Assembly: GCA_003223395.1 (NCBI GenBank)
Contig: QHUZ01000026.1
Span: 1-64,000, forward strand
Direction of reading: 5' to 3'
Length of the DNA: 64,000 nucleotides
Source: Gemmatimonadota bacterium
Lineage (GTDB): Bacteria; Gemmatimonadota; Gemmatimonadetes; Gemmatimonadales; GWC2-71-9
Below the pieces are notes generated by a model. The model was not told the origin of the DNA. It saw nothing but the letters and a program-made list of their open reading frames with translations, and searched no databases. The translations under genes and the position numbers were made by a program. Below, in pieces: positions 41,977-55,078 of the stretch. The first letter of the stretch is position 1, and the number at the start of each line of letters is the position of its first letter.

Positions 41977-43452
41977 TCAGAGCCCAATTCCCAACTCCCT
42001 CCACATCGAGTCGACGCGAGCCTTGGTCTCCGCGTCCATCACGATCTTGTTCGGCCACTCGCGCGTGAAGCCTTCTTCCTTCCATTTCCGCGTCGCGTCG
42101 ATTCCCATTTTCGAGCCGTAGGTGAAGCCGCGACTGGAGTGATCGAGCACGTCGATCGGCCCCATCGTGAAGCGCACGTCGCGCTCGGGATCGATGTGAT
42201 TGAGCGCGACCCACCACGCCTCTTTGGTGTCGCGGACGTTCACGTCCTTGTCCACGACGACGATCACCTTGGCGAGCGACATCAATCCTTGTCCCCAGAG
42301 GCCATTCATCACCTTGTAGGCCTGGCCCGGGTACTGCTTGTCGATGCTCACGAACACCAGGTTGTGAAAAATCCCCTCGGCCGGCATGTGGAGGTCCACG
42401 ATCTCGGGGATCGTGAGCTTGAGCAGCGGGAGAAAAATCCGCTCCGTGGCGTGGCCGAGGTAGAAGTCCTCCATCGGCGGGCGGCCGACGATCGTGTGCG
42501 GCCAGAGAGGATCGTCGCGGAAGGTCACCGCGGTGACGTGCACTTTCGGATAGTAGTCGGCGAGCGAGTAAAACCCCGTGTGATCGCCGAACGGCCCCTC
42601 GAGCACCAGCTCTTCACGCGGATCGATGTAGCCTTCGATCACGATCTCCGCTTCCGCCGGAACTTCGAGATCCGACGTCACCGCCTTGGACAGGCGTACC
42701 GGCTCGCCGCGCAGGAAGCCGGCGAACAGAAACTCGTCGATCGTGGGTGGGAGCGGGGCCGAGGCAGCATAGATACTCGCGGGATCCCCGCCGAGGGCGA
42801 TGGCGACGGGCATCTTCTCGCCGCGCTCCGCCATCACGCGCCAGTGCGCCGCGCCCACCTTATGCCGCTGCCAGTGCATCGCCAACGTGTTCTTGCTCAG
42901 CACTTGCACCCGGTACATCCCCACATTCCTGACTCCGGATTCCGGATTCCTCGTTATGACTCCACCGAGCGTGATGTACGGCCCACCGTCTTCGGGCCAG
43001 CAGATCGGCACCGGAAACTGAGCGAGGTCGACATCCGATTCCTCGATAACGGTACTCTGGCAGGCGGGACGGCCGACCGTCTTGGGTGGGAACTTCGCGA
43101 TCTCGGCGAGGCGCGGCAGCATCGCGAGCTTGCCGAGCAGGCCCTCGGGCACCTTGAGCGCGATCAATTCTGCGATCCGCGCACCCACGTGGTCGAGGCA
43201 CTCGACGCCGAGCGCGAGCGACATGCGTTGTTCGGAGCCGAAGAGATTGACGGCCACCGGATACCTGGACTTCCCACCGGTGCGCAGCGTCGGCTGCGTG
43301 AACAGCAGCGCCGGTCCACCGCCGGGCGACTTCATGCAGCGGTCGGCGACTTCCGTGATCTCCTTGTCCACCGATACGGGGCGCGTCACCCGGGTGAGGT
43401 CGCCGGATTTGTCGATCGCGGCGACGAACTCCCGCAGGTTATCGAGTGCCAT
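41977..43452 (-). CDS. ubiD: UbiD family decarboxylase
   Basis: 491 residues. It decarboxylates the prenylated aromatic acid using prenylated FMN supplied by UbiX. Conserved segments: VGMYRVQVLSKNTLAMHWQRH, EGPFGDHTGFYS, and TIVGRPPMEDFYLG; the E-D-E catalytic set is expected in these. The enzyme could be ubiquinone or menaquinone (MqnL) type. It overlaps ubiE by 14 bp and precedes ubiA by one nucleotide, so the three form an operon for the late ring modifications. Confidence 0.94.
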   Translation of the reverse strand: MALDNLREFVAAIDKSGDLTRVTRPVSVDKEITEVADRCMKSPGGGPALLFTQPTLRTGGKSRYPVAVNLFGSEQRMSLALGVECLDHVGARIAELIALKVPEGLLGKLAMLPRLAEIAKFPPKTVGRPACQSTVIEESDVDLAQFPVPICWPEDGGPYITLGGVITRNPESGVRNVGMYRVQVLSKNTLAMHWQRHKVGAAHWRVMAERGEKMPVAIALGGDPASIYAASAPLPPTIDEFLFAGFLRGEPVRLSKAVTSDLEVPAEAEIVIEGYIDPREELVLEGPFGDHTGFYSLADYYPKVHVTAVTFRDDPLWPHTIVGRPPMEDFYLGHATERIFLPLLKLTIPEIVDLHMPAEGIFHNLVFVSIDKQYPGQAYKVMNGLWGQGLMSLAKVIVVVDKDVNVRDTKEAWWVALNHIDPERDVRFTMGPIDVLDHSSRGFTYGSKMGIDATRKWKEEGFTREWPNKIVMDAETKARVDSMWRELGIGL

Positions 43453-44128
43453 AGTGGACCGCGCAGATGCCGCCCGTCAGGCGCTCGAACCCGACGCGCG
43501 AGAATCCCGCGGCTCCGAGCCGCTCGGACAGTGCCTCCGGCTCCGGAAATGCGAGCACCGACTCTGGCAGGTAGGTATAGGCGTCTCTATGTTTCGACAC
43601 GAGCCGCCCGATGGCGGGCAGAATTCGCCGGAAGTAGCAGAGGTAGATCGCGCGCAGCGGCGCGAACCGGGGCGTGGCGAATTCGAGGATGACGAACCGC
43701 GCGCCGGGTTTCAGGACGCGGGCCGTTTCGCGGAGGCCCCTGTCGAGGTCGGCGAGATTGCGTACGCCAAATCCCACCAGCGCGCCGTCGAACCGCGCCG
43801 CGGGAAAGGGCAGCGCCAGCGCGTCGGCGGCGACCGGAACGGTGCGGGGCGATTTGCCTTTGCCCTGCGCCAGCATCGGAACCACGAAGTCGGCCCCGAT
43901 CACGCGGCCGCGAAAGCCGCCCTGCCGGGCCAGCTCGGCGGCGAGGTCCAGGGTACCGGCACAGAGATCGAGGTAGGTGCCGTCGGGTTTAGCTTCCCAG
44001 CCGAGGCGCGCCACGGCGGTGCGTCGCCAGGACCGATCCACGTTGAGGCTGAGCAGATGGTTGAGGAAATCGTAGCGCGGTGCGATCGCGGTGAACATGT
44101 TGCGCACGTAGGCTGCGGAGCGACCCAT
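43439..44128 (-). CDS. ubiE: UbiE/MenG-type quinone C-methyltransferase
   Basis: 229 residues. SAM-dependent methyltransferase: motif I reads LDLCAGTLDLA, with the UbiE signatures YDFLNHLLSLNVDRSWRR and FGVRNLADLDRGLRE near the middle, and a C-terminal GGICAVHYGTR. It performs the last C-methylation in menaquinone or ubiquinone synthesis. It is divergent from the sigma-factor gene (49 bp between starts) and starts the leftward ubiE-ubiD-ubiA operon. Confidence 0.93.
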   Translation of the reverse strand: MGRSAAYVRNMFTAIAPRYDFLNHLLSLNVDRSWRRTAVARLGWEAKPDGTYLDLCAGTLDLAAELARQGGFRGRVIGADFVVPMLAQGKGKSPRTVPVAADALALPFPAARFDGALVGFGVRNLADLDRGLRETARVLKPGARFVILEFATPRFAPLRAIYLCYFRRILPAIGRLVSKHRDAYTYLPESVLAFPEPEALSERLGAAGFSRVGFERLTGGICAVHYGTR

Positions 44129-44177
44129 AGGCGCGAAAGATAGGCCGGACCACCTGAACGCCGCCAGCGATCAGCAG

Positions 44178-44738
44178 GTGGTGGCGTGGGCAAAGCAGGG
44201 TCACGACGCGGCATTCCGCGAGCTCGTCCGTCGCTACGAGCGTCCGGTGTTTTCGCTGCTCTATCGGATGGTGCGCGATCGCGCGCTCGCCGAGGATCTC
44301 GCGCAGGAAACGTTCATCAAGGTCCTGAACGGCATCAAATCGTACCGGCCGGAATTCAAGTTCTCATCCTGGATTTTCAAGATCGCGAACAACGCCGCGA
44401 TCGATCATCTGCGGCGCAAGAGCATCGACACGCTGTCGCTCGATGGCGCGCCCAGTGCCGAGACGCCCGACCAGGTCCGCGCGACGTCGTTGCAGTTGGG
44501 CGACCGCGCGGAGAGTCCGCTCGACGAAGTGGAGAGCCGCGAGCTTGGGACGGCCATCGAGCGGGCCATCGCCCGGCTGCGGCCCGAGTACCGGTCGTGC
44601 ATTCTGCTACGCCACGTCGAGGGCTATTCCTACGAGGAAATCGCCGAAACGCTGGATCTGCCCCTGGGAACGGTCAAAACCTATATCCATCGGGCCCGTA
44701 ATGAATTGCGTGGTTATCTCGACGATCGCCGGGAGTGA
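44178..44738 (+). CDS. ECF-type RNA polymerase sigma factor
   Basis: 186 residues from GTG; region upstream is open and a CTG at 44154 would add eight residues (LNAASDQQ) that fit a sigma-2 N-terminus better, so the start is uncertain. Region 2 reads DLAQETFIKVLNGIKSY then FSSWIFKIANNAAIDHLRRK. Region 4 reads LRPEYRSCILLRHVEGYSYEEIAETL and LPLGTVKTYIHRARNEL. The linker is long. A tiny zinc-binding protein follows 33 bp downstream as its probable anti-sigma. It resembles the RpoE/SigW group; the stimulus is unknown. Confidence 0.92.
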   Translation: MVAWAKQGHDAAFRELVRRYERPVFSLLYRMVRDRALAEDLAQETFIKVLNGIKSYRPEFKFSSWIFKIANNAAIDHLRRKSIDTLSLDGAPSAETPDQVRATSLQLGDRAESPLDEVESRELGTAIERAIARLRPEYRSCILLRHVEGYSYEEIAETLDLPLGTVKTYIHRARNELRGYLDDRRE

Positions 44739-44771
44739 AACCAGAGCCGAAACCGGGCCGTAGGAGACCCA

Positions 44772-45014
44772 ATGACTGACATCTCCATGCATCTCAATAC
44801 CGATGAAATCGAGCTCTGGGCGCAGGGCCTCCTGCCCGCCGCCCGGGCCATGCATCTCGCCGATTGCTCGCTCTGCCGTGTCGAAGCCGAACGTGAACGG
44901 AAGGTGATTCTCCAGCTGGTCCAGCTTCCGAAGTTTGCGCCGAGCGCTGGGTTTGCTGATCGGGTGATGGCGCAGGTGAAGGTTCACGCGCCATCGGGCG
45001 ACTGGACGGCGTAG
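44772..45014 (+). CDS. Small anti-sigma-like zinc-binding protein
   Basis: 80 residues. The motif HLADCSLC (H-x3-C-x2-C, about residues 27-34) is the ZAS/zf-HC2 signature of anti-sigma factors that bind ECF sigmas. Unlike most relatives it lacks any transmembrane segment and ends shortly after FADRVMAQVKVHAPSGDWTA, so it would be a soluble anti-sigma or a truncated form. Position directly after an ECF sigma and before a strong terminator supports this role. A role in redox or metal sensing through the Cys/His set is an inference. Confidence 0.78.
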   Translation: MTDISMHLNTDEIELWAQGLLPAARAMHLADCSLCRVEAERERKVILQLVQLPKFAPSAGFADRVMAQVKVHAPSGDWTA

Positions 45015-45042: not shown

Positions 45043-45081
45043 GTAGGGGCGCAGCGTGCTGCGCCCCTACATGTTTTGTTT
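45043..45081 (+). terminator. Perfect palindromic terminator after the sigma/anti-sigma pair
   Basis: Arms GTAGGGGCGCAGC and GCTGCGCCCCTAC form a perfect 13-bp stem with a 2-nt GT loop (45043-45070), followed by ATGTTTTGTTTT on the plus strand, as in a rho-independent terminator. The same palindrome type recurs in many bacterial genomes, so it may also be a mobile palindrome used as a terminator. The opposing membrane-protein gene ends at 45081. Confidence 0.85.
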
Positions 45082-45968
45082 TACCTACCGCGCCCTCGTT
45101 CGAGCCTCATCGTGCCGTACCGTAGCGTATCCGTTGATACGTTCGCACAATCCGTGGGTCGCGCATGGACCAGCGCACGAGGCTCTGGCACAGGCCAATC
45201 GGCGTCCGAATACGCGATGACCCTCCCACGGAGATCACGGCCCCAACGATAGAGACGCATATTCACTGAGTTGAACACGTCACTCCAGGTCATCGTGATG
45301 CTGCGCGAGCCGGTTGGCACCCAAGACGCCCGTCCCCACCAGGTCGGTGGTCGGATCAACAACCCGCCTTCTGCATATGTCGAATCGAGGCGAATGCGTT
45401 GCGGCACGACCGCGGGAAGTGCTCGGCGGAATTCATCCCCGCCCGGAATCCACCGACCAAAATCAAGCTCATAACACCCAGCGAAATTCTGCGTGTACTG
45501 CGGCTTTGCGACTGGAGCCTCGGAGTCCGCGACGGCCCATACCGACGTAGCAAAGATGGTGAATGATGTCAGGAGGATTGGACCGCCCGTTCGTACCAGC
45601 CACTGCCTCGGCCCCACGTGACCTGACTCGGGAAAAACAGAAAGTGTCCATGCGAAGGTCAGGATGAGCGGAATCGCGCACGCTAGCCCAACAAGGGAGA
45701 CAAAGGCACCTTCGGTATCCAGGTACCACGACCAGTACGGAAAAGGAAGGAGGAGGCTCACAAGACCCAACGGCAGCAGACTGAAGCCCAGGTAGAGCAT
45801 CCACCGCGCGCGAGTCATCCGGTAGGTAATCAGGAACAACGGCGCCGTCAGCACCATCCAGACGCCCAGGACGCGCGTGGCATACGGCGGCCCAAACCAC
45901 CACATCGAGACACCAAACGCGAACAACATCGCGAATGCGATGATCGCCAGCAGCCACCGCCAGCTCAT
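45081..45968 (-). CDS. Membrane protein of unknown function
   Basis: 295 residues, family not recognised. Four to five hydrophobic helices fill the N-terminal 150 residues (MSWRWLLAIIAFAMLFAFG onward), followed by a soluble extracytoplasmic domain (about 160-295) with conserved-looking tryptophans (DFGRWIPGG, RPPTWWGRASW) and two cysteines. The base composition here looks lower in GC than the surrounding genes, which may reflect transfer. It overlaps the SAM-hydrolase gene start (ATGA) as the last gene of the stressosome/MATE unit. Confidence 0.6.
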   Translation of the reverse strand: MSWRWLLAIIAFAMLFAFGVSMWWFGPPYATRVLGVWMVLTAPLFLITYRMTRARWMLYLGFSLLPLGLVSLLLPFPYWSWYLDTEGAFVSLVGLACAIPLILTFAWTLSVFPESGHVGPRQWLVRTGGPILLTSFTIFATSVWAVADSEAPVAKPQYTQNFAGCYELDFGRWIPGGDEFRRALPAVVPQRIRLDSTYAEGGLLIRPPTWWGRASWVPTGSRSITMTWSDVFNSVNMRLYRWGRDLRGRVIAYSDADWPVPEPRALVHARPTDCANVSTDTLRYGTMRLERGRGR

Positions 45969-46705
45969 GCTCGCACCTCCGCCCCCACACTCAGCCCAAG
46001 CGTCCGCATCGCACTCCCGTCCCGCACCGCGATCTCTACGGTACCCCCGGAACCCGTAAACGCTACCAGCTCCCCGGGTGCGACATCCGCAAAGGTCCGT
46101 CGCAGTGGCCCCGCGTCTACTCCGCCCACGTGAATGCTCGCTCCTGGCTTCAGGGCGTTCGGCGTAATGTTCGAGATCAGCGTCCCGAACCGATCGACGT
46201 ACACCACTTCACCCACGACGGCGTCTCGCTCGGTGGTCGGGATCGGCAAGGGCAGCTGGAGCGGATCGGTAATGGCCGTGCCCAGCGACTCGAACGATCC
46301 TCCGTTCGCCAGCACGCCAGCGGCGGGCGCAAAGACGTCGCGGCCATGGAACGTGGGCGCTGCTTCAGGAAGCACGGGGATGGAGATGAACGTGGCATTC
46401 ATGGACAGGAACGAGAGCAGCCCGTTATCCGGTGCCAGAAAGTACCGACCATGTCGCGTTGCCCCGAGCACCCTGCGATCTGTTCCCACCCCGGCGTCGA
46501 CGACGGCGACGTAAATCGTGCCTTCGGGAAAGAACATCCAGGTCCGACTGAGGAGGTATTGAGCGGCGCGCACGTCGCCCGGCGACACGTCATGGGTGAT
46601 ATCGACCAGTGTCGCAGTGGGAGCGTACGTCGAGAGCACGCCCTTCATCTCGGCGATGTAACTGTCGGCTGTGCCGAAGTCGGTGAGCAGCGTAATGATC
46701 GCCAT
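45965..46705 (-). CDS. S-adenosyl-L-methionine hydroxide adenosyltransferase (DUF62 family)
   Basis: 246 residues. The family hallmarks are ITLLTDFGTADSYIAEMKG at the N-terminus, then DITHDVSPGDVRAAQYLL, VDAGVGT, APDNGLLS and YVDRFGTLISNI. Members hydrolyse SAM to adenosine and methionine; some relatives fluorinate or chlorinate SAM but this has the hydrolase-type core. It starts 3 bp after the MATE stop and its own stop overlaps the membrane-protein start. Why a SAM hydrolase lies in the stressosome unit is unknown. Confidence 0.9.
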   Translation of the reverse strand: MAIITLLTDFGTADSYIAEMKGVLSTYAPTATLVDITHDVSPGDVRAAQYLLSRTWMFFPEGTIYVAVVDAGVGTDRRVLGATRHGRYFLAPDNGLLSFLSMNATFISIPVLPEAAPTFHGRDVFAPAAGVLANGGSFESLGTAITDPLQLPLPIPTTERDAVVGEVVYVDRFGTLISNITPNALKPGASIHVGGVDAGPLRRTFADVAPGELVAFTGSGGTVEIAVRDGSAMRTLGLSVGAEVRA

Positions 46706-46708
46706 GGT

Positions 46709-47962
46709 CTAGACCCTGACGGTACGCCACCGCCCGCCTTTCCAGAAGAGGATCATCGCGATGCCGCGTGAGATCGCGGTGACGCTCAAGGCCAGCCAGA
46801 TCCCCAGCAGCCCGAACCGTCGCGACCACCACGCGGCGAGCGGAATGCGCATCGCCGTGAGCGTGGTGCTCACGACCTGCGGCCAGAACGTGTACCCCGC
46901 GCCCGCCAGCGCCCCTTCCAGAATCAGCTCGAAGCTCTGGCCGATCTGGGCGAATGCAATCACCCGCAAATACAGCACACCGTCGGTAATGACCTGGGGA
47001 TCGCGCGTGAACAGCGCCACCAGTTGTCCGGGAATAAGCAGAAAGGCGATGGCCGTCGTCACCGTGACCGCGAGGCAATAACTCACCGTGAGACGCACGG
47101 CCTCCCGCGCCCGGGTCTCCTGCCCCGCGCCGAGGTTCTGGCCGACGAGCGCGCTGGCGGCCAGCGCGAAGCCGCTGATCGCGATGAAGCCGAGCCCTTC
47201 CATTTTATGACCCACGCCGAGCGCGGCGAGCGCCGCGGTGCCAAATCGCGACGTGAACCGCGTGAGCCACATGTAGATCACCGAGAGTAGCACACCCGCA
47301 AGCGACAACGGCGCCCCGATACGAATGATCGTCGGCAGGGCGCGCCAATCGGGCGCGCTGATGCGGAGCAAGCCCCGCCGCAACGCGATGACGAGCCCGA
47401 GCAGGAAGCCGCCGCCGCGCACCATGACGGAGGCGAGGGCGGCTCCTTCGACGCCGAGCCGGGGGAACGGACCAAGGCCCATGATCAGCAGGGGATCGAG
47501 CAGAATCGACACGCCGACCGAGCCCGCGAGCATCAGAAAGGGCGTCCGCGTATCGCCAGCGGCGCGGAACGTGGCCTCGATCGCAAAGAACCCGAATACG
47601 AGCGGGGCGCCGAGCAGCCAGGTCGAGAGGTACGCATGGCCGAGCGTGGCAACGTCGGGCGGCACGCGCATGACGCGAAACATCGGGCCCGCCACCGCCC
47701 ACCCGATGATGCTGACGGCCAGGCCGGCACCGAGCGCATACGCCACCGCGGCCGCCGCGGCTCGTGCGGCGCGATCGGGAAATCCTTCGCCATGACGCCG
47801 CGCCGCGACCGCAATCAATCCGATCTCCACCATCTCGCCGAGACTGAGCGCGACCCAGATGTAGAACCCCGCGGTGGAAACGGCCGCCAGGGCGGCCGGC
47901 CCGATGAGGCGGCCCACCCAGATGCTGTCGATCAGATTGAAGGAGAAGTGGCACGCCATCAT
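46709..47962 (-). CDS. MATE family multidrug/organic cation efflux transporter
   Basis: 417 residues with about 12 helices in two homologous bundles, e.g. LIDSIWVGRLIGPAALAAVST and LGVGHKMEGLGFIAISGF, the MATE-typical paired motifs. The first ATG at 47962 begins inside the first helix. The open frame upstream, SLTTGPLRPVVLGLAAPAVA, matches the N-terminus expected of MATE proteins, so the true start probably lies near 48019 (a CTG) or further. It follows the RsbX-like gene and is thus likely expressed under the stressosome operon. Transport substrate unknown. Confidence 0.88.
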   Translation of the reverse strand: MMACHFSFNLIDSIWVGRLIGPAALAAVSTAGFYIWVALSLGEMVEIGLIAVAARRHGEGFPDRAARAAAAAVAYALGAGLAVSIIGWAVAGPMFRVMRVPPDVATLGHAYLSTWLLGAPLVFGFFAIEATFRAAGDTRTPFLMLAGSVGVSILLDPLLIMGLGPFPRLGVEGAALASVMVRGGGFLLGLVIALRRGLLRISAPDWRALPTIIRIGAPLSLAGVLLSVIYMWLTRFTSRFGTAALAALGVGHKMEGLGFIAISGFALAASALVGQNLGAGQETRAREAVRLTVSYCLAVTVTTAIAFLLIPGQLVALFTRDPQVITDGVLYLRVIAFAQIGQSFELILEGALAGAGYTFWPQVVSTTLTAMRIPLAAWWSRRFGLLGIWLALSVTAISRGIAMILFWKGGRWRTVRV

Positions 47963-48035
47963 CGCGACGGCGGGCGCCGCGAGCCCCAGGACGACCGGCC
48001 GCAGCGGGCCGGTCGTCAGCGAGCCGGCGACCTGC

Positions 48036-48641
48036 TTAGCGGGCGTAGCGTGCTACCAGCACGAGCGCGTCATCGTTGTCCTTTGCGTGCCGGGTCATGA
48101 CGAAGTCGGCGATCTCCTGCGGCGACTTGGAGAGCACGAGGGACTCCGCGAACCCGTCCTTGATGCCGTCGGAGTGCAGAATCACGGTATCGCCCAGGGC
48201 GAGCGGCACGGAGCGCGTCGTGGGATGCGGCTGTTCGGCGCCGATGAATCCTGCGTTCGGGACGAGCGTGATGCGCGACGGGCGGTTGCCGACATCGGCA
48301 CGCAACAGGACGCCGCCGACGTTGCCGACACCGAGCCAGGCCATCGTCGCCGCTTGCGGATCGAGATAGGCCAGGCCGAGGACCACGCCGCGCAACCCGA
48401 CCAGCGCATCGTGGCAGCGGCGCACGAGATCGATGAGCGGCTCGCGCGAGTAGCGGTCCAGTGCGCCCACGGCGGCGTGCGCGGCGGAGGCGGCCTGCTG
48501 GCCGTGCCCCAGCCCGTCCACGACGGCGATGAGCGTCCCCTTACCGACTCGCTTGATGAGGCTGAGATCGCCGGACTCAGACTGCCCCTGGAGCGGCAGC
48601 GTGGCGAACGCCGTTTCGATCTTCAAATGGCCCGCCGCCAC
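48036..48641 (-). CDS. RsbX-like SpoIIE/PP2C phosphatase
   Basis: 201 residues. The PPM-type metal motifs are VVDGLGHGQQAAS, ILHSDGIKDG and NDDALVLVARY. In stressosomes RsbX dephosphorylates RsbR and RsbS to reset the complex. A GTG at 48641 is used here; a TTG at 48626 overlapping the rsbT stop is an alternative. It follows RsbT in the canonical RST-X order. It could instead be an RsbU-like phosphatase, but the lack of a partner-binding N-terminal domain favours RsbX. Confidence 0.88.
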   Translation of the reverse strand: MAAGHLKIETAFATLPLQGQSESGDLSLIKRVGKGTLIAVVDGLGHGQQAASAAHAAVGALDRYSREPLIDLVRRCHDALVGLRGVVLGLAYLDPQAATMAWLGVGNVGGVLLRADVGNRPSRITLVPNAGFIGAEQPHPTTRSVPLALGDTVILHSDGIKDGFAESLVLSKSPQEIADFVMTRHAKDNDDALVLVARYAR

Positions 48642-49030
48642 TTCTTCATCGTGATGGTGGTGCCGTGGCCCACGACCGAATCGACTTCGAACTCGTCCAT
48701 CAACCGCTTGGCGCCGGGGAGCCCGGCGCCCACGCCGTGCGACGTGGAGTAGCCGTACTGCATCGCGCGCTCGATGTCCGGAATGCCGGGGCCCTGATCG
48801 ACGGCGACGATCGAGACGCCCTGGCGGTCGCCGTTCTGGACGAGACTGAGGGTGATCTCGCCCTTCTTGGCGTACATCAGGATGTTGCGGGCGATTTCGG
48901 AAATGGCGGCGGCAATGACAGTCTGTTCGCCGCTGGAGAATCCTGCGACGGCGGCTAATGCGCGGCCTTGCTGTCTTGCTTCAACGACATCAACGTCCGC
49001 GGCAATCGGCAGACGCAGCTCATCACCCAC
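48623..49030 (-). CDS. rsbT: Stressosome kinase RsbT (GHKL serine/threonine kinase)
   Basis: 135 residues. A GHKL ATPase fold is seen in IAAAISEIARNILMYA (N box), VDQGPGIPD (G1) and YGYSTSHGVGAGLPGAKRL (G2). RsbT phosphorylates serine/threonine on RsbR and RsbS and upon release activates a downstream phosphatase or other output. It overlaps RsbS by 8 bp and RsbX by up to 19 bp. Position R-S-T-X is the classical stressosome order. Confidence 0.93.
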   Translation of the reverse strand: MGDELRLPIAADVDVVEARQQGRALAAVAGFSSGEQTVIAAAISEIARNILMYAKKGEITLSLVQNGDRQGVSIVAVDQGPGIPDIERAMQYGYSTSHGVGAGLPGAKRLMDEFEVDSVVGHGTTITMKKWRRAI

Positions 49031-49439
49031 GGGGCGGGCCGCTCGGGGGTCGCCGGGATTTGTCGAACGCGCCTCCCCCCAACCCGCCCTTGGTGCGGCC
49101 GTCGAGGAAGGCGAGGCCTTCCTCGAGGTCGAGCACCGTGGCGACGCCCTTGAGCGTGAGTCCGAGCTGCACCATCGCGAACGCCACGTCGGGCTGGATG
49201 CCGACGATGACCGTTTCTGCGCCGCGTAAGCGCGCCATGTGCGCGATGTCGCGCAGGGTTCGCACCGCGAACGAATCCATCACGTCCAGCGCGGTGACGT
49301 CCACGATGACGCCGCGGCAACGCGACCGCCCGACCTGGGCGATCAGCGCTTCGCGGAGATGGGAGAGATCGGCGTCTGTGAGGGCGGACTGAATCGAGGC
49401 AATGAGATATTGCCCCTGCCGCAGAATCGGTACTTCCAC
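49023..49439 (-). CDS. rsbS: Stressosome scaffold RsbS (STAS domain)
   Basis: 138 residues with one STAS domain (about 1-115). The phosphorylatable serine is in the loop DVTALDVMDSFAVRTL, matching RsbS. A Gly/Arg/Pro-rich tail (about 117-138) is not seen in short RsbS proteins and overlaps the start of rsbT. RsbS with RsbR builds the stressosome core that holds RsbT at rest. Confidence 0.93.
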   Translation of the reverse strand: MEVPILRQGQYLIASIQSALTDADLSHLREALIAQVGRSRCRGVIVDVTALDVMDSFAVRTLRDIAHMARLRGAETVIVGIQPDVAFAMVQLGLTLKGVATVLDLEEGLAFLDGRTKGGLGGGAFDKSRRPPSGPPRG

Positions 49440-49451
49440 GGCGACCTCCGG

Positions 49452-50378
49452 CTAACGCTGGGATTCTGGAGCGATTTCGCGGACCTGCGTCGTCGGCGCA
49501 GCGCGATCGGCGAGCAAGCGCTCCGCCTCTTCGATGCCTCCCTGCAGGTCACCGACCGTGGCCATTTCGCTCAGGTCGACGCCGATCGTCACGAGCGTCT
49601 GCGCGATTTCGGGCGACAGGCCGGTGACGATGACCGTGGCGCCCAACAGGCGCGACGCTTCGACCGTCTGCACCAAGTGGTTCGCGACACCGGAGTCCAT
49701 GGCCGCCACACCGGTCACGTCGATCACGACGACCTTGGCACGGTTCGCGCGAATCGCACGCAACAGCTGTTCGGTCAGCTGCCGGGCGCGCTGCGGATCG
49801 ATGACGCCGATGATGGGCAGAATCAGCAGCCGCTCGCGCACCTGCAGCACCGGCGTGGACAGCTCCCGGATGGCTTCCTGTTGCTGCCGGATGATGCGCT
49901 CGCGCTCCTCTACGAATCCGACGGCCACCGTGTTCGCGATGCGGTTCGCCGCGGGCTCGTAGCTGTCGAGAATCCGGTTCAGTTTTTCGACGTTGTCCTG
50001 GTACTTGGTGAACAATGAGCGGGCGAGCACGTCACGCAGGAGGAGCACGATGCCGACGACTTCGTCTGTTTCGACGCCTCGCGGAATGATGCGCTCCGAC
50101 AGTCGCCGCGAGTACGCCTGCAGGGCCTCGAAGGTCCCTGTCTCGAGCGCTTCCACGTAGTTGTCGTAGACCGCGGTGGCTTCGGCGAAGATTTCCTCTT
50201 CCGTCATCGCCGTCAGCAGCTCCGCGCGTGTGATGCGGCGCGCCCATTCCTCGCGCAGCTGCGTGCGGTTCTGTCGCAGGTGCGCGACGAGCTCGCGCAG
50301 CAACCCGGCCGACGACTCGGACAGCGCTTGGGGATCAGACACCCGGGTCGATACGCTCATGCTTTTCTTGGTATCCAT
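49452..50378 (-). CDS. rsbR: Stressosome sensor RsbR (non-heme globin-like N domain plus STAS)
   Basis: About 308 residues from the ATG at 50378, which has AGGAG just upstream; a GTG at 50402 would add eight residues. The N-terminal about 150 residues are all helical (RsbRD type), likely the sensing turret. The STAS domain (about 175-290) carries the RsbR phosphosite region VIDVTGVAAMDSGVANH. A polar tail ends the protein. The gene follows the GGDEF cyclase, whose TAA stop ends 24 bp upstream, and precedes rsbS by 12 bp. Confidence 0.9.
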   Translation of the reverse strand: MDTKKSMSVSTRVSDPQALSESSAGLLRELVAHLRQNRTQLREEWARRITRAELLTAMTEEEIFAEATAVYDNYVEALETGTFEALQAYSRRLSERIIPRGVETDEVVGIVLLLRDVLARSLFTKYQDNVEKLNRILDSYEPAANRIANTVAVGFVEERERIIRQQQEAIRELSTPVLQVRERLLILPIIGVIDPQRARQLTEQLLRAIRANRAKVVVIDVTGVAAMDSGVANHLVQTVEASRLLGATVIVTGLSPEIAQTLVTIGVDLSEMATVGDLQGGIEEAERLLADRAAPTTQVREIAPESQR

Positions 50379-50402
50379 GGCTCCTAACCTAGTGGTGGCC
50401 AC

Positions 50403-51809
50403 TTAGGGAGCAAGGCCCACAGCCCTGCTCTTGCGGCGTTCCTTGGTCTCGTACAATGCGACATCGGCTGCGTTTAGTAGTGCTTCCACGGTCTCACCGT
50501 GGCCGGGGTAGACGGCCACCCCCACACTGATCGACAGGTTCGGCTTCTCGGCGTCGGTGGCCAGCCGGTCGGCCACCCCGCGCGCCACGTGCCAGGCGGC
50601 CGCCTCCCCGGTCTCGGGGAGCACGAGCGCGAATTCGTCGCCTCCGAACCGGGCTGCCGTATCCGTGGCGCGGCAGGATCCGAGCAGCGCCTCCGCCACG
50701 CGCCGGATCGCCAAGCTGCCGGCGAGGTGTCCGTGGCGGTCGTTGATCTGCTTCAGGCCGTCGAGATCCAGCAACACAACCGCGAGCGGCTGTCCGGTGC
50801 GGCGCGAGCGCCGGATCTCGGACTCGAGGGACTGCGTCAGCTGGCGGTTATTGGCGAGCCCCGTCAGCGGATCGGTGACGGCGAGCTGCTGCCACGTCCC
50901 CTGGATATCGCGCTGCGACGCGACCGCGGCTGCGAGCACGAGACTCGTTACCGCAGTGATGCCGGTCCACACCTGCAGCAGCACCAACGACTCGTTGGTC
51001 GCGTAGACGGAGAACGGGCCGACGCCGGACAACGTCCGCGAAATCGCGATCGCCGACACGATCAGCATCGTGGTCGCGGCCTCGCGGGGGCCAAAGCGAA
51101 ACGCCACCCAGATCATCACCGGCCAGAGCAGGACGGTCAGCGGGTAATGCCGCGTCGGGAACGCGCCGCCGAACAGCGCCAGCGTGACCAGCGCGGCGAC
51201 GACCGCGAGCGCGACTGCCTCGACGACTTTTTGCTCTGTCCACCCCGGGCCGAGTTTGACGCCGATCCAGAGAATCAGCGCCGGTGCGATGACCATGTCG
51301 CCGACTGCGTCACCCAGCCACCACGTCAGCCAGACGCGCGGGGCATCCGTCACCGAGACGAGACCGCCCAGCGCGAGTGACGCGACGCCAATGGACGCCG
51401 CGACCGTGGTGCTGACGATTGCCGCGAGCAGTGTGAACCGGATGATGTCGCGCACGCGGTCGAACACCCGCCCCCCGCGCGCGAAGCGGTTGACCAGGTA
51501 CGCCGCGAGCAACCCTTCCATTGTATTGCCGACCGCGATGCCGATCGACGGGAACACCGCGCCGGTGGTGGTGATATTCGCGAAGAAGGCGCCAGCGAGG
51601 ATCGCGGGCCAGACACCATACCCGAGCAGCACGAACGCGGCGAGCGCGATGCCGGCGGGCGGCCAGATCGTGGTCACCGAGCTGTTGATGTATGCGAATC
51701 GCAGGCCGAGCTTCGCGGCGAAGTAGTAAACCGCGGCCAGCCCGAACAGCAGCGTCACCCGACGGACTGACTGCCTCATCCGGCCTACGCTAAAAGAGCG
51801 ATTCGTCAT
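50403..51809 (-). CDS. Diguanylate cyclase with MASE1 membrane sensor
   Basis: 468 residues. Eight or more N-terminal helices form a MASE1-type sensor (INSSVTTIWPPAGIALAAFVLLG, about 1-290). The GGDEF domain (about 300-460) has DPLTGLANNR, LDLDGLKQINDRHGH and the active site RFGGDEFAL. An RxxD inhibitory site (RATD) stands exactly five residues before GGDEF, so product feedback is expected. It makes cyclic di-GMP in response to an unknown membrane signal. It is the first gene of the unit that includes rsbR-rsbS-rsbT-rsbX, linking cyclic di-GMP to the stressosome. Confidence 0.93.
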   Translation of the reverse strand: MTNRSFSVGRMRQSVRRVTLLFGLAAVYYFAAKLGLRFAYINSSVTTIWPPAGIALAAFVLLGYGVWPAILAGAFFANITTTGAVFPSIGIAVGNTMEGLLAAYLVNRFARGGRVFDRVRDIIRFTLLAAIVSTTVAASIGVASLALGGLVSVTDAPRVWLTWWLGDAVGDMVIAPALILWIGVKLGPGWTEQKVVEAVALAVVAALVTLALFGGAFPTRHYPLTVLLWPVMIWVAFRFGPREAATTMLIVSAIAISRTLSGVGPFSVYATNESLVLLQVWTGITAVTSLVLAAAVASQRDIQGTWQQLAVTDPLTGLANNRQLTQSLESEIRRSRRTGQPLAVVLLDLDGLKQINDRHGHLAGSLAIRRVAEALLGSCRATDTAARFGGDEFALVLPETGEAAAWHVARGVADRLATDAEKPNLSISVGVAVYPGHGETVEALLNAADVALYETKERRKSRAVGLAP

Positions 51810-51859: not shown

Positions 51860-52936
51860 TTACGCCCCAAAGGGGGGGGGACCGTGCCCTGGGTCACTCG
51901 CCGTCTGGAGCGTAGGGTCTCGTCCGAGCGTAGGCGCGCCTTGGATAGGCGACGAGGGGTCGCCGTCCGACTGACGCAGCGGGAGCAGGAGATCAGGGAG
52001 CTGATCTCGGCGGGACTCGGCAACAAGGACATTGCGCGGCGGCTGCGCATCTCGACGAATACGGTGAAGAGCCATGTGCACAACATGCTCGGCAAGCTCG
52101 CGGCGCTTACTCCGCCCGATCGGCGGCGGTCCGGAAACCGCCGCGGTCGCGGCGTGAGTCGGCGCTCCGCTCAGTTCAGCGGCTGAGGTCCTGGCGGGCA
52201 CTTCCCGCAGGAAGCGTTGAAACACCGGATTGCGAGGATAGCGCGCGGCGAGTCCTTCGACATAGCCGCGCGCTTCCCGCTCCAGGACGTCGCGCCCGGC
52301 GGCATCGCGCGCGGCCTCACGCAGCAACGCCGCGGCCAGCACCCATGTGCTCTCGACGCGCGCCAGATCGCCGTCATGCGCCGCACGGCGCATGTAGCGA
52401 ATCCCACGTTCCGCGTTGCCGCCGCCCAAACCGATGAGGCGGGCAAGAAAGCGGGCAAACGCGCCCGCGCGCGCCAGCCCGTAGTCGTAGACGCCCAATC
52501 CCAGATAGCAATCCGTGCACGAAGAATCCGCCGCGAGCAGCCGCCGATAGATGTCGCGCATCGCCTTCGCGTCCTTCGCCGCGCTGAAGCCGTGCCCATG
52601 CTCCTCGCGCTGGCGCGCCCGATAGCCGAGCGCCGTGGCCAGCCAGAAATCCGCGCCGGCGCCCGACGCGCGCGCGCGCGCGATCGCCACGCCGAGGAGC
52701 GAGTCGATGCGCTGCAGCGCAAAGTCGGCGGAGTCCAACGCGGATGCCCACCAGATGTAGGCGCCCGCCTGGAAGACGACCGGCGCGGGATCGGCGGGTT
52801 CGTGGGCGGCCAATGCCGCGAAGTAGCTCGCCGCGCGTTCGAAATCTCCGCCATACAGCGTGTCGAGACCGCTGCGCAGGGCTGGGCGTGGCGTGCCCTG
52901 GAGCGCCAGCAACGCGATCGCGACGAGCGCCGGCAC
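51860..52936 (-). CDS. TPR-like exported protein of unknown function
   Basis: About 358 residues from a GTG at 52936, just after the mrp stop. A hydrophobic N-terminus (VPALVAIALLALQG) precedes helical repeats of TPR type: GDFERAASYFAALAAHEP, YRARQREEHGHG, DCYLGLGVYDYGLARAGAF and ALLREAARDAAGRDVLE. The last about 110 residues, from APTHAATAAV onward, run antisense through the LuxR-type gene and are Arg/Pro-rich, so the natural end may lie near 52190, with the stop lost or the tail being artefact. The family is not recognised. Confidence 0.55.
   Translation of the reverse strand: MPALVAIALLALQGTPRPALRSGLDTLYGGDFERAASYFAALAAHEPADPAPVVFQAGAYIWWASALDSADFALQRIDSLLGVAIARARASGAGADFWLATALGYRARQREEHGHGFSAAKDAKAMRDIYRRLLAADSSCTDCYLGLGVYDYGLARAGAFARFLARLIGLGGGNAERGIRYMRRAAHDGDLARVESTWVLAAALLREAARDAAGRDVLEREARGYVEGLAARYPRNPVFQRFLREVPARTSAAELSGAPTHAATAAVSGPPPIGRSKRRELAEHVVHMALHRIRRDAQPPRNVLVAESRRDQLPDLLLPLRQSDGDPSSPIQGAPTLGRDPTLQTASDPGHGPPPFGA
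51884..52186 (+). CDS. Stand-alone LuxR-type DNA-binding protein
   Basis: 100 residues. The GerE/LuxR helix-turn-helix is complete: LTQREQEIRELISAGLGNKD then IARRLRISTNTVKSHV with HNMLGKLAA. The N-terminus is an Arg-rich stretch (about 1-28), not a receiver domain. Start GTG 51884 is preceded by a nine-G tract (51872-51880), which overlaps the ribosome-binding region and could vary in length. It is divergent from the GGDEF-stressosome operon with a 74-bp gap and may regulate it. Confidence 0.82.
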   Translation: MPWVTRRLERRVSSERRRALDRRRGVAVRLTQREQEIRELISAGLGNKDIARRLRISTNTVKSHVHNMLGKLAALTPPDRRRSGNRRGRGVSRRSAQFSG

Positions 52937-52937
52937 G

Positions 52938-54050
52938 TCAGCGCGGCGCCGTGATCGGAATGGCGGGAGCGAGCCCTGCCGTGCGTGTAATGACCGTCCG
53001 GGCCAGCTCGCGCAGCGCCACACCGGCCGGCGACTCCGGCTGGCTCACGACAATCGGCTCGCCGCGATCGGCGAGCTCCGCCATGCCGGCCTGTAAGGGA
53101 ATCTGTCCCAGCAGCGGCACGCCCAGCTCGGCGGCCAGGCGGCTGCCGCCGCCCGCCAGGAAGATATTGGACCGCGCGTGGCAATCGGGGCACACGAAGT
53201 AGCTCATGTTCTCGACGATGCCGACGACGCCGACGCCGACACGCTCGAACATCTTGGCGCCGCGCAGCGAATCGCCCACGGCCATCTCCTGCGGCGTCGT
53301 CACGATCAGCGCGCCATGCAACCGGACGATCTGGGTAAGCGAGAGCTGGGCGTCGCCGGTGCCCGGCGGCAGGTCGACGAGAAAGTAATCCAGTTCGCCC
53401 CACGCCACGTCGTGCATGAACTGCGTGATGATCTTCATGATGATCGGGCCGCGCCAGATCGCGGGCGCGTCGCGCTCCACGATGAAGCCGAGCGACATCA
53501 GCTTCACGCCGTGCGCCTCGAGCGGCTGGATCTTCCCGCCCTGGACTTCCGGCTTACCGCTGAGGCCGAACATGCGGGGGATGTTGGGCCCGTAGATGTC
53601 CGCGTCCATCAGGCCGACCCGGTGGCCGTCGCGCGCCAGCGCCGCGGCGAGGTTCGCCGACACGGTCGACTTCCCGACGCCCCCTTTGCCGCTCGAGATC
53701 GCGAGAACCTTGCCGAGTGACGGCAGTTCGTCCGGCGTCGGTGGGGCTGGAGGAGCGGCGGCCGGACGGACCGACGGCCGGGCGGCCGGTTGGGAACCGC
53801 CATCGGCGGAATCCACCACGTTCATCTTCACACCCGTCACGCCCGGAACACCCTCGACCGCTTTGCGCGCCTGGCGCGCCAGCGAGCCGGGATCTTCGCG
53901 GGTGAGCACGAAGGTGAATGTGACCGTGCCGGCGGAGTCGACGACGATTTCCTTCACCATGCCGGCCGCGACGATATCACGGCCGTGACGCGGATTGATG
54001 ATGCCGCCCAGCGCCTGCTCGACGTCGGTTTTGATCTTCTCTGCACTCAC
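52938..54050 (-). CDS. mrp: Mrp/NBP35 family iron-sulfur cluster carrier ATPase
   Basis: About 370 residues from a GTG overlapping the DHH gene stop. An N-terminal MIP18/DUF59 domain (GGIINPRHGRDIVAAGMV) is followed by a proline-rich linker that contains an octanucleotide array (53757-53788, peptide QPAARPSVRPAA). The deviant P-loop SSGKGGVGKST, the switch LMDADIYGPNIP, the DLPPGTGD motif and the cluster-binding CPDC follow. It delivers Fe-S clusters to apoproteins. The open frame upstream of 54050 is not coding. Confidence 0.94.
   Translation of the reverse strand: MSAEKIKTDVEQALGGIINPRHGRDIVAAGMVKEIVVDSAGTVTFTFVLTREDPGSLARQARKAVEGVPGVTGVKMNVVDSADGGSQPAARPSVRPAAAPPAPPTPDELPSLGKVLAISSGKGGVGKSTVSANLAAALARDGHRVGLMDADIYGPNIPRMFGLSGKPEVQGGKIQPLEAHGVKLMSLGFIVERDAPAIWRGPIIMKIITQFMHDVAWGELDYFLVDLPPGTGDAQLSLTQIVRLHGALIVTTPQEMAVGDSLRGAKMFERVGVGVVGIVENMSYFVCPDCHARSNIFLAGGGSRLAAELGVPLLGQIPLQAGMAELADRGEPIVVSQPESPAGVALRELARTVITRTAGLAPAIPITAPR
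53757..53788 (+). repeat. GC-rich octanucleotide array (four units) inside mrp
   Basis: Units GGCGGCCG (53757), GACGGACC (53765), GACGGCCG (53773), GGCGGCCG (53781). Read on the mrp strand it codes QPAARPSVRPAA in the linker between the MIP18-like and P-loop domains, where length is tolerated. Same family and unit count as the two arrays in glmM. Confidence 0.75.
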
Positions 54051-55078
54051 ACGGACCTGCCGTTGGCGAGGAACGCTCGTGCCGCGCTCAGCACTTTCTC
54101 CTCCACCTCCGCCATGGTGCCCGGCAAGGAGGCGCCCGCCGCCCGGTGATGGCCGCCGCCACCGAATTGATGGGCGAGCGCCGCGACGTCTACTTCGCCC
54201 ATCGACCGGAACGAGACCTTGATGCGACCATTGCCGATGTGCCGGAACAAGAGCGCCATGCGGACGCCGGCAATCGAGCGCGGAAATTCGACGATCCCAT
54301 CGAGGTCGTCGGCGGTCACCTCGTGGCGACGGAGCGCGTCCGGGGGTACGCTGACCCACGCCAACCCGACCTCCGGCTCCACGACCAGCGTCTGCAGCAC
54401 TTCCGCGAGCAGTCGCACGCGGCCTTCGGGCGCGCTGGCGTAGACCGAAGCATAGATGGCTTCGGGATCGACGCCCTGCTCGAGCAGCGCCGCCGCGACG
54501 CGCAGCGCGCGGGCCGTGGTGTTGGAGAAGCGGAATCCTCCCGTGTCGGTCAGCAAACCGACGTACAGCGCCTGCGCCACCTCCGGCGTGAGCGGCCAGC
54601 CGGCCACGCTGGCAAGATCGAACACGAGCTCGGCCGTCGCAGTCGCCTCCGGCGCGATGAGGGAGGGGCCGGGGGGCAGCTTCACCGGACCGACATGGTG
54701 ATCGATGCAGACGAGGGGTGGGGGCGGCTGTCGCTTGTTGATCACAGCCGCCAGGTTGCCCAGCCTGCTGAGGTCTCCGATGTCCAGCGACGCGACCATA
54801 TCGGCGCGCTCGATCTCACGCACCGCGCGGTCGCTCGCATCGGCGCCATCGGGAATCATGAAGTGGAAGCGCTCGGGGATCTCGGTGGGATTGGCGATCG
54901 TCACCGACACGCCGCGTCCGCGCAGCAGATGCCACAACCCGATCTCGCTGCCCACGCCGTCGCCATCGGCGTTGACGTGCGTCGTCAAAACGACATGGCT
55001 GGCACTGGTGAGCGCCTTCGCCACGTCGCGCGCCGCCTGGGCACGATCCGGCGGAACGGGAACGCCGTTCGGGTTCAT
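54047..55078 (-). CDS. nrnA: DHH/DHHA1 phosphoesterase, NrnA-like
   Basis: 343 residues. The N-terminal DHH domain has THVNADGDGVGSE and CIDHHVGP metal motifs, and DHHA1 carries HQFGGGGHHRAAG. The domain order and length suit NrnA, which degrades short RNA (nanoRNA) and pAp; cyclic dinucleotide activity is possible in relatives. Symbol is by family resemblance, not tested. Upstream is 85 bp to the permease gene end; downstream its stop overlaps the mrp start. Confidence 0.88.
   Translation of the reverse strand: MNPNGVPVPPDRAQAARDVAKALTSASHVVLTTHVNADGDGVGSEIGLWHLLRGRGVSVTIANPTEIPERFHFMIPDGADASDRAVREIERADMVASLDIGDLSRLGNLAAVINKRQPPPPLVCIDHHVGPVKLPPGPSLIAPEATATAELVFDLASVAGWPLTPEVAQALYVGLLTDTGGFRFSNTTARALRVAAALLEQGVDPEAIYASVYASAPEGRVRLLAEVLQTLVVEPEVGLAWVSVPPDALRRHEVTADDLDGIVEFPRSIAGVRMALLFRHIGNGRIKVSFRSMGEVDVAALAHQFGGGGHHRAAGASLPGTMAEVEEKVLSAARAFLANGRSV

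Follow-up and report, generated by a model that had tools for sequence, protein, structure and literature searches.

Probable insertion of a stressosome core between a diguanylate cyclase gene and its older neighbours in one genus of Gemmatimonadota

The RsbRSTX stressosome genes of one Gemmatimonadota genus (g1) were very probably inserted, in the ancestor of that genus, into an older chromosomal block, at the joint of its GGDEF and MATE genes. There they stand without the output pair that usually accompanies such genes, and the partner of the RsbT kinase is, on this reading, unlikely to be encoded by the MATE and SAM hydrolase genes, which follow at most as co-transcribed passengers. This interpretation draws on direct observations of the genes present, their preserved catalytic and phosphosite residues, an empty site in relatives, a genus-wide arrangement and the missing usual output.

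The window, by which we mean the whole 64,000-nucleotide stretch analysed here, is a portion of contig C28 of a 3.41-Mb genome (97.6% complete) that is most closely related, among named genomes, to soil MAGs of Gemmatimonadetes. On its minus strand, from 51809 to 45965, genes for MASE1-GGDEF, RsbR, RsbS, RsbT, RsbX, MATE and SAM hydrolase lie in close succession (Table 1). All seven genes that the initial annotation had placed in this order are present, with the domains it named recovered by Pfam: MASE1 (168 bits) and GGDEF (134) in the cyclase, STAS and a weak RsbRD_N in RsbR, STAS in RsbS, HATPase_c/HATPase_c_2 in RsbT, a SpoIIE-type PP2C in RsbX, MatE in the exporter, and SAM_HAT_N plus SAM_HAT_C in the SAM hydrolase. 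Its upper limit of 24 bp for the gaps before MATE also holds, as the largest (GGDEF to RsbR) is 24 bp, RsbR to RsbS measures 12 bp, and the RsbS/RsbT and RsbT/RsbX pairs overlap by 8 and 19 bp. The first MATE ATG lies 73 bp after RsbX (72 bp in that annotation), and MATE is separated from the SAM hydrolase gene by 3 bp.

At its 3′ side, an eighth open reading frame of 295 aa (45968-45081) shares 4 bp with the stop end of the SAM hydrolase gene, and a hairpin at 45070-45043 is the probable end of the unit. The slot 3′ of the SAM hydrolase gene is variable, as G003 and G007 carry an unrelated insert of about 920 bp there (94% identical). At the other side, the divergent LuxR-type HTH protein is a possible regulator of the unit. 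A promoter scan returned no site, although such scans are little informative in Gemmatimonadota.

Table 1. Coordinates of the unit, its flanks and related loci (positions refer to the window unless a locus is named)
Feature	Position	Strand	Remark
MASE1-GGDEF diguanylate cyclase, 468 aa, I-site present	50403..51809	-	orthologue precedes MATE without stressosome in sister genera
RsbR, RsbRD_N-like N-terminus and STAS	49452..50378	-	ATG 50378 preceded by AGGAG; GTG 50402 a possible alternative start
RsbS, single STAS, conserved phospho-Ser	49023..49439	-	
RsbT switch kinase, ATP-binding motifs intact	48623..49030	-	
RsbX, single-domain PP2C feedback phosphatase	48036..48641	-	best solved relatives 3zt9 and Bacillus RsbX 3w40
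MATE exporter, inherited neighbour	46709..48037	-	first ATG 47962 would cut first membrane helix
SAM hydrolase / SAM hydroxide adenosyltransferase, inherited neighbour	45965..46705	-	
295-aa membrane ORF, no assigned function	45081..45968	-	only in this genome; slot is variable
Terminator-like hairpin, 12 pairs, T-runs both sides	45043..45070		
LuxR-type HTH protein, 100 aa, divergent from unit	51884..52186	+	at this place only in genus g1
Ancestral flank, convergent with unit: UbiE (-), ECF sigma factor (+), short ECF partner (+)	43439..45014		
Ancestral flank: TPR-like protein, Mrp, NrnA	52171..55078	-	
Insert of about 920 bp in slot after SAM hydrolase	L051 10300-11260; L054 6130-7090		
Activator and TPR genes after stressosome, examples	L060 6318-8959; L061 5726-8349		
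RsbV-RsbW-GAF/PP2C	L016 (contig C72) 3093-5355		between housekeeping genes

Judged by its genes, this RsbRSTX set is a genuine stressosome core. Alignment with Listeria stressosome chains places a phosphorylatable Ser in RsbS (mDSf) and shows both known phosphosites of RsbR to be occupied, one by Ser and the other by Thr, so both STAS proteins retain the residues expected of a stressosome. RsbT, with its ATP-binding motifs, is encoded directly 3′ of rsbS, and the feedback PP2C RsbX resembles solved phosphatases of the RsbX type. Relative-rate counts gave no excess change in RsbS, RsbT or RsbX of genus g1, and a non-significant excess in RsbR (15 versus 6, p=0.08); a switch of RsbT target visible as faster evolution was rejected, given that these counts hold no RsbT excess. 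No stressosome was found on viral contigs. Elsewhere in the phylum, a second stressosome type has two or three RsbT-like genes around RsbX (L063, L226, L228-L245); in L063, the last RsbT-like gene is fused to a histidine kinase.

The unit's gene order recurs in the other members of the genus and is therefore far beyond chance. RsbT is present in all ten g1 genomes, and GGDEF-RsbR adjacency in 9/9 of those where the joint is visible (it was read via contig C33, L276, in G006; G009 was left out, as its contig begins within RsbR). The initial annotation is borne out in that all of RsbRSTX shares a tight unit with a GGDEF gene and that no RsbT target of the RsbU type adjoins it. MATE directly follows RsbX in nine genomes and is lost in G004. 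The SAM hydrolase gene, also found in nine, is lost in G008 and truncated in G006 (short by about 50 residues). RsbRSTX persists in the members that lost MATE or SAM hydrolase. The GGDEF-RSTX-MATE arrangement occurs only in g1, where 10/10 genomes carry the RsbRSTX insertion. The initial annotation had named a gene order unique to this genome as an argument against its view; checked across the phylum, the order turns out to be conserved in the genus and confined to it, leaving that argument half in force.

Relatives reveal what preceded the insertion. In families f1, f2 and f3, the order APC-NrnA-Mrp-TPR-MATE-SAMhyd-(asf)-ECF-UbiE-UbiD is found, whole or mostly and with MATE, SAMhyd or both, without a stressosome. 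Genera g16 and g37 include 11 genomes with an empty site, Mrp-TPR-MASE1GGDEF-MATE-SAMhyd without stressosome; the cyclase orthologue precedes MATE in all of these and is directly adjacent to it in seven. RsbRSTX is encoded at another place in 7/11 empty-site genomes (G024, G136, G133, G174, G273, G280 and G292). Since the block exists without a stressosome in relatives, the window order is derived, with RsbRSTX having entered an existing GGDEF-MATE joint. By this comparison of gene orders, MATE and SAM hydrolase, like Mrp, ECF and UbiE/UbiD, are part of a block that predates the stressosome insertion. In a tree of the flanking proteins, g1 is sister to g11 and next to g12/g16/g37. An RsbRST tree places g1 inside the family clade and groups it with g16/g33/g37/g38/g47 at a support of 0.94, in a topology of mixed supports with some weak nodes.

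The start of the MATE gene differs between occupied and empty sites. Relatives at the empty site have a MATE ATG nine codons before a conserved SLT (MTTVGRTPGSLTVG). Before the ATGATG at 47962, the nine g1 MATE genes contain no upstream in-frame ATG or GTG, and no TTG common to all (region 47962-48040). The first membrane helix starts within the codons upstream of this ATGATG, and the 21 codons preceding it hold 27 synonymous versus 5 amino-acid variants among the nine g1 genomes, indicating purifying selection. In all nine of these g1 genomes, MATE is read in frame +1 relative to the RsbX stop, and the spacer of 6 to 15 codons contains no stop. To go by these reading frames, insertion of RsbRSTX apparently removed the MATE start, and MATE may depend on rsbX translation or begin at a non-standard codon.

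The usual output of this type of stressosome was found in sister genera. In 15 genomes from eight of these (g11, g16, g29, g31, g33, g37, g38 and g47), RsbRSTX is followed by an activator gene (Sigma54_activat, AAA lid and Fis HTH domains) and a TPR gene; the same pair follows RsbRSTX at L118, L130 and L134. The N-terminal ~140 residues of the activator matched no Pfam family. Their AlphaFold2 model (mean pLDDT 76) has five strands alternating with five helices and, among PDB structures, matches receiver domains best. Because the f1 sequences have a Gly where an acidic residue is expected at the end of strand 3 (Asp in L130), we infer a pseudo-receiver in f1. No sigma-54 activator downstream of RSTX features among the eleven types of PMC9237108 or in literature searches conducted mostly outside subscription papers, and the activator-TPR pair appears to be undescribed.

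Neither partner of this pair was found in the window genome: the TPR protein is absent, and the candidates for an activator orthologue proved to be other activators. Within the genus, the TPR gene is absent in 8/10 genomes. An additional RsbT with an activator-TPR set is encoded in G004 and in G008; these sets were considered as remnants of the original output and rejected, as trees group them with those of L130/L134, a separate lineage. In two genus members, the orphan second RsbT with its own activator and TPR genes, and no RsbR, RsbS or RsbX beside it, lies at L062 (550-3971) and L064 (9237-12526).

We propose that the RsbRSTX core landed in the GGDEF-MATE joint and that the sigma-54 activator, with its receiver-like domain, and the TPR protein would have been left behind. 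RsbR and RsbS would hold RsbT. Upon stress, RsbT would phosphorylate both and then leave, while RsbX would reset the RsbR/RsbS system. The released RsbT would act on another partner, most likely the product of a gene outside the unit. Locally, the membrane cyclase alone is a plausible candidate; a target encoded elsewhere is at least as likely as the cyclase.

Binding of freed RsbT to the MASE1-GGDEF protein, altering cyclic di-GMP synthesis in a Moorella-like manner without an RsbU_N dock, is conceivable, if rather unlikely. The GGDEF-RsbR adjacency is tight and genus-wide, the cyclase retains its active and inhibitory sites (RATD-5-GGDEF), and most known RSTX downstream proteins likewise lack RsbU_N (PMC9237108). 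However, the initial annotation's parallel with the Moorella type fails on the very domain that defines it: RsbU_N mediates RsbT control in Moorella MtG (PMC12143880), whereas a Pfam domain search that matched all positive controls (B. subtilis, L147 and L131) found it neither in the cyclase nor anywhere in the 10 g1 genomes. Furthermore, sister genera have orthologous cyclases unlinked to the stressosome and another output after RsbX, and RsbT itself lacks the excess change noted above. Cyclase orthologues do occur in 22/24 stressosome genomes, and the genera that have them almost coincide with those that have this type of stressosome, but this co-occurrence follows a single clade, is not independent and was rejected as functional proof. 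In two other lineages, a GGDEF gene lies 3′ of the RsbRSTX-activator-TPR set (L130 9286-10110, L134 14185-15108). Because of these genes after the TPR gene and the genus-wide GGDEF-RsbR adjacency, we retain a cyclic di-GMP link as a possibility. That landing in a cyclase operon rewired the stressosome of one genus, replacing a sigma-54 activator/TPR output by an RsbT-controlled membrane diguanylate cyclase without an RsbU_N dock, is a more doubtful proposition still.

A tentative alternative, which we also regard as improbable, involves partner switching: RsbT would activate a GAF-PP2C phosphatase, RsbV would be dephosphorylated and RsbW would release a sigma factor. Genes for RsbV, RsbW and such a phosphatase indeed lie in a row on contig C72 of the window genome, where no sigma factor gene was recognised beside them. 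The initial annotation was right that no RsbU, RsbV or RsbW is encoded near the unit, but this module on C72 of the same genome qualifies it, and its own caveat, that rsbU/V/W might lie elsewhere and be coexpressed, is half borne out by the location of rsbV, rsbW and a PP2C gene. Against a role downstream of RsbT, the module is unlinked to the stressosome, and its phosphatase carries GAF instead of the RsbU_N of the sigma-B pathway phosphatase that acts on RsbV/RsbW.

Finally, that exporter and SAM hydrolase serve as stressosome effectors, the extended output originally suggested from their shared strand and short gaps, is very improbable and refuted as a conserved unit, as both are older neighbours found in the same order without a stressosome in relatives, do not track it across relatives, and are lost or truncated in g1 members that keep RsbRSTX. 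Being older and dispensable to the stressosome, they do not support an extended output; RsbT is unlikely to act on either, and gene neighbourhoods make them at most co-transcribed passengers, inherited neighbours rather than demonstrated outputs. The SAM hydrolase family itself is widespread, and its function is still debated, with clean-up of the (R,S)-SAM epimer discussed as a possibility (PMC12120602).

Insertion into an older block, our preferred reading, makes this unit a clear case of misleading operon membership, in which relatives show the stressosome to be the newcomer and the other genes its old neighbours. The genus of the window provides a natural experiment, a stressosome with its usual output gone, and the activator-TPR pair of the eight sister genera makes an RsbT role without RsbU testable.

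Among known systems, the closest RsbRSTX sets outside Gemmatimonadota come from MAGs labelled Acidobacteria, Nitrospirae, Ignavibacteria and others. These blocks precede proteins that start with an RsbU_N-like region. Most are histidine kinases, frequently accompanied by a NarL-type regulator, and Pfam verified the RsbU_N domain at two such loci (L147 and L131). The output there carries RsbU_N, while genus g1 has none. Vibrio-type RSTX modules, for which eleven architectures have been described downstream (Heinz 2022, PMC9237108), share the RSTX block, and their downstream partners often lack RsbU_N and in some cases contain GGDEF (PMC9237108). However, their RsbR is of the globin type, and neither a sigma-54 activator nor MATE or SAM hydrolase appears among the domains listed (PMC9237108). 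The Bacillus/Listeria stressosome has the same four proteins, phosphosites and R-S-T order, and the RsbR and RsbS studied here match Listeria chains. Here, in contrast, RsbX directly follows RsbT, the RsbR N-terminus is of the RsbRD_N type, and neither an RsbU_N phosphatase nor an attached sigma-B operon is present. The Moorella thermoacetica stressosome with MtG likewise combines RSTX with a diguanylate cyclase gene, and the best solved relative of the window RsbX is the SpoIIE-type phosphatase 3zt9. In MtG, RsbT uses an RsbU_N domain (PMC12143880), whereas in genus g1 a MASE1-GGDEF cyclase without this domain is encoded upstream of rsbR.
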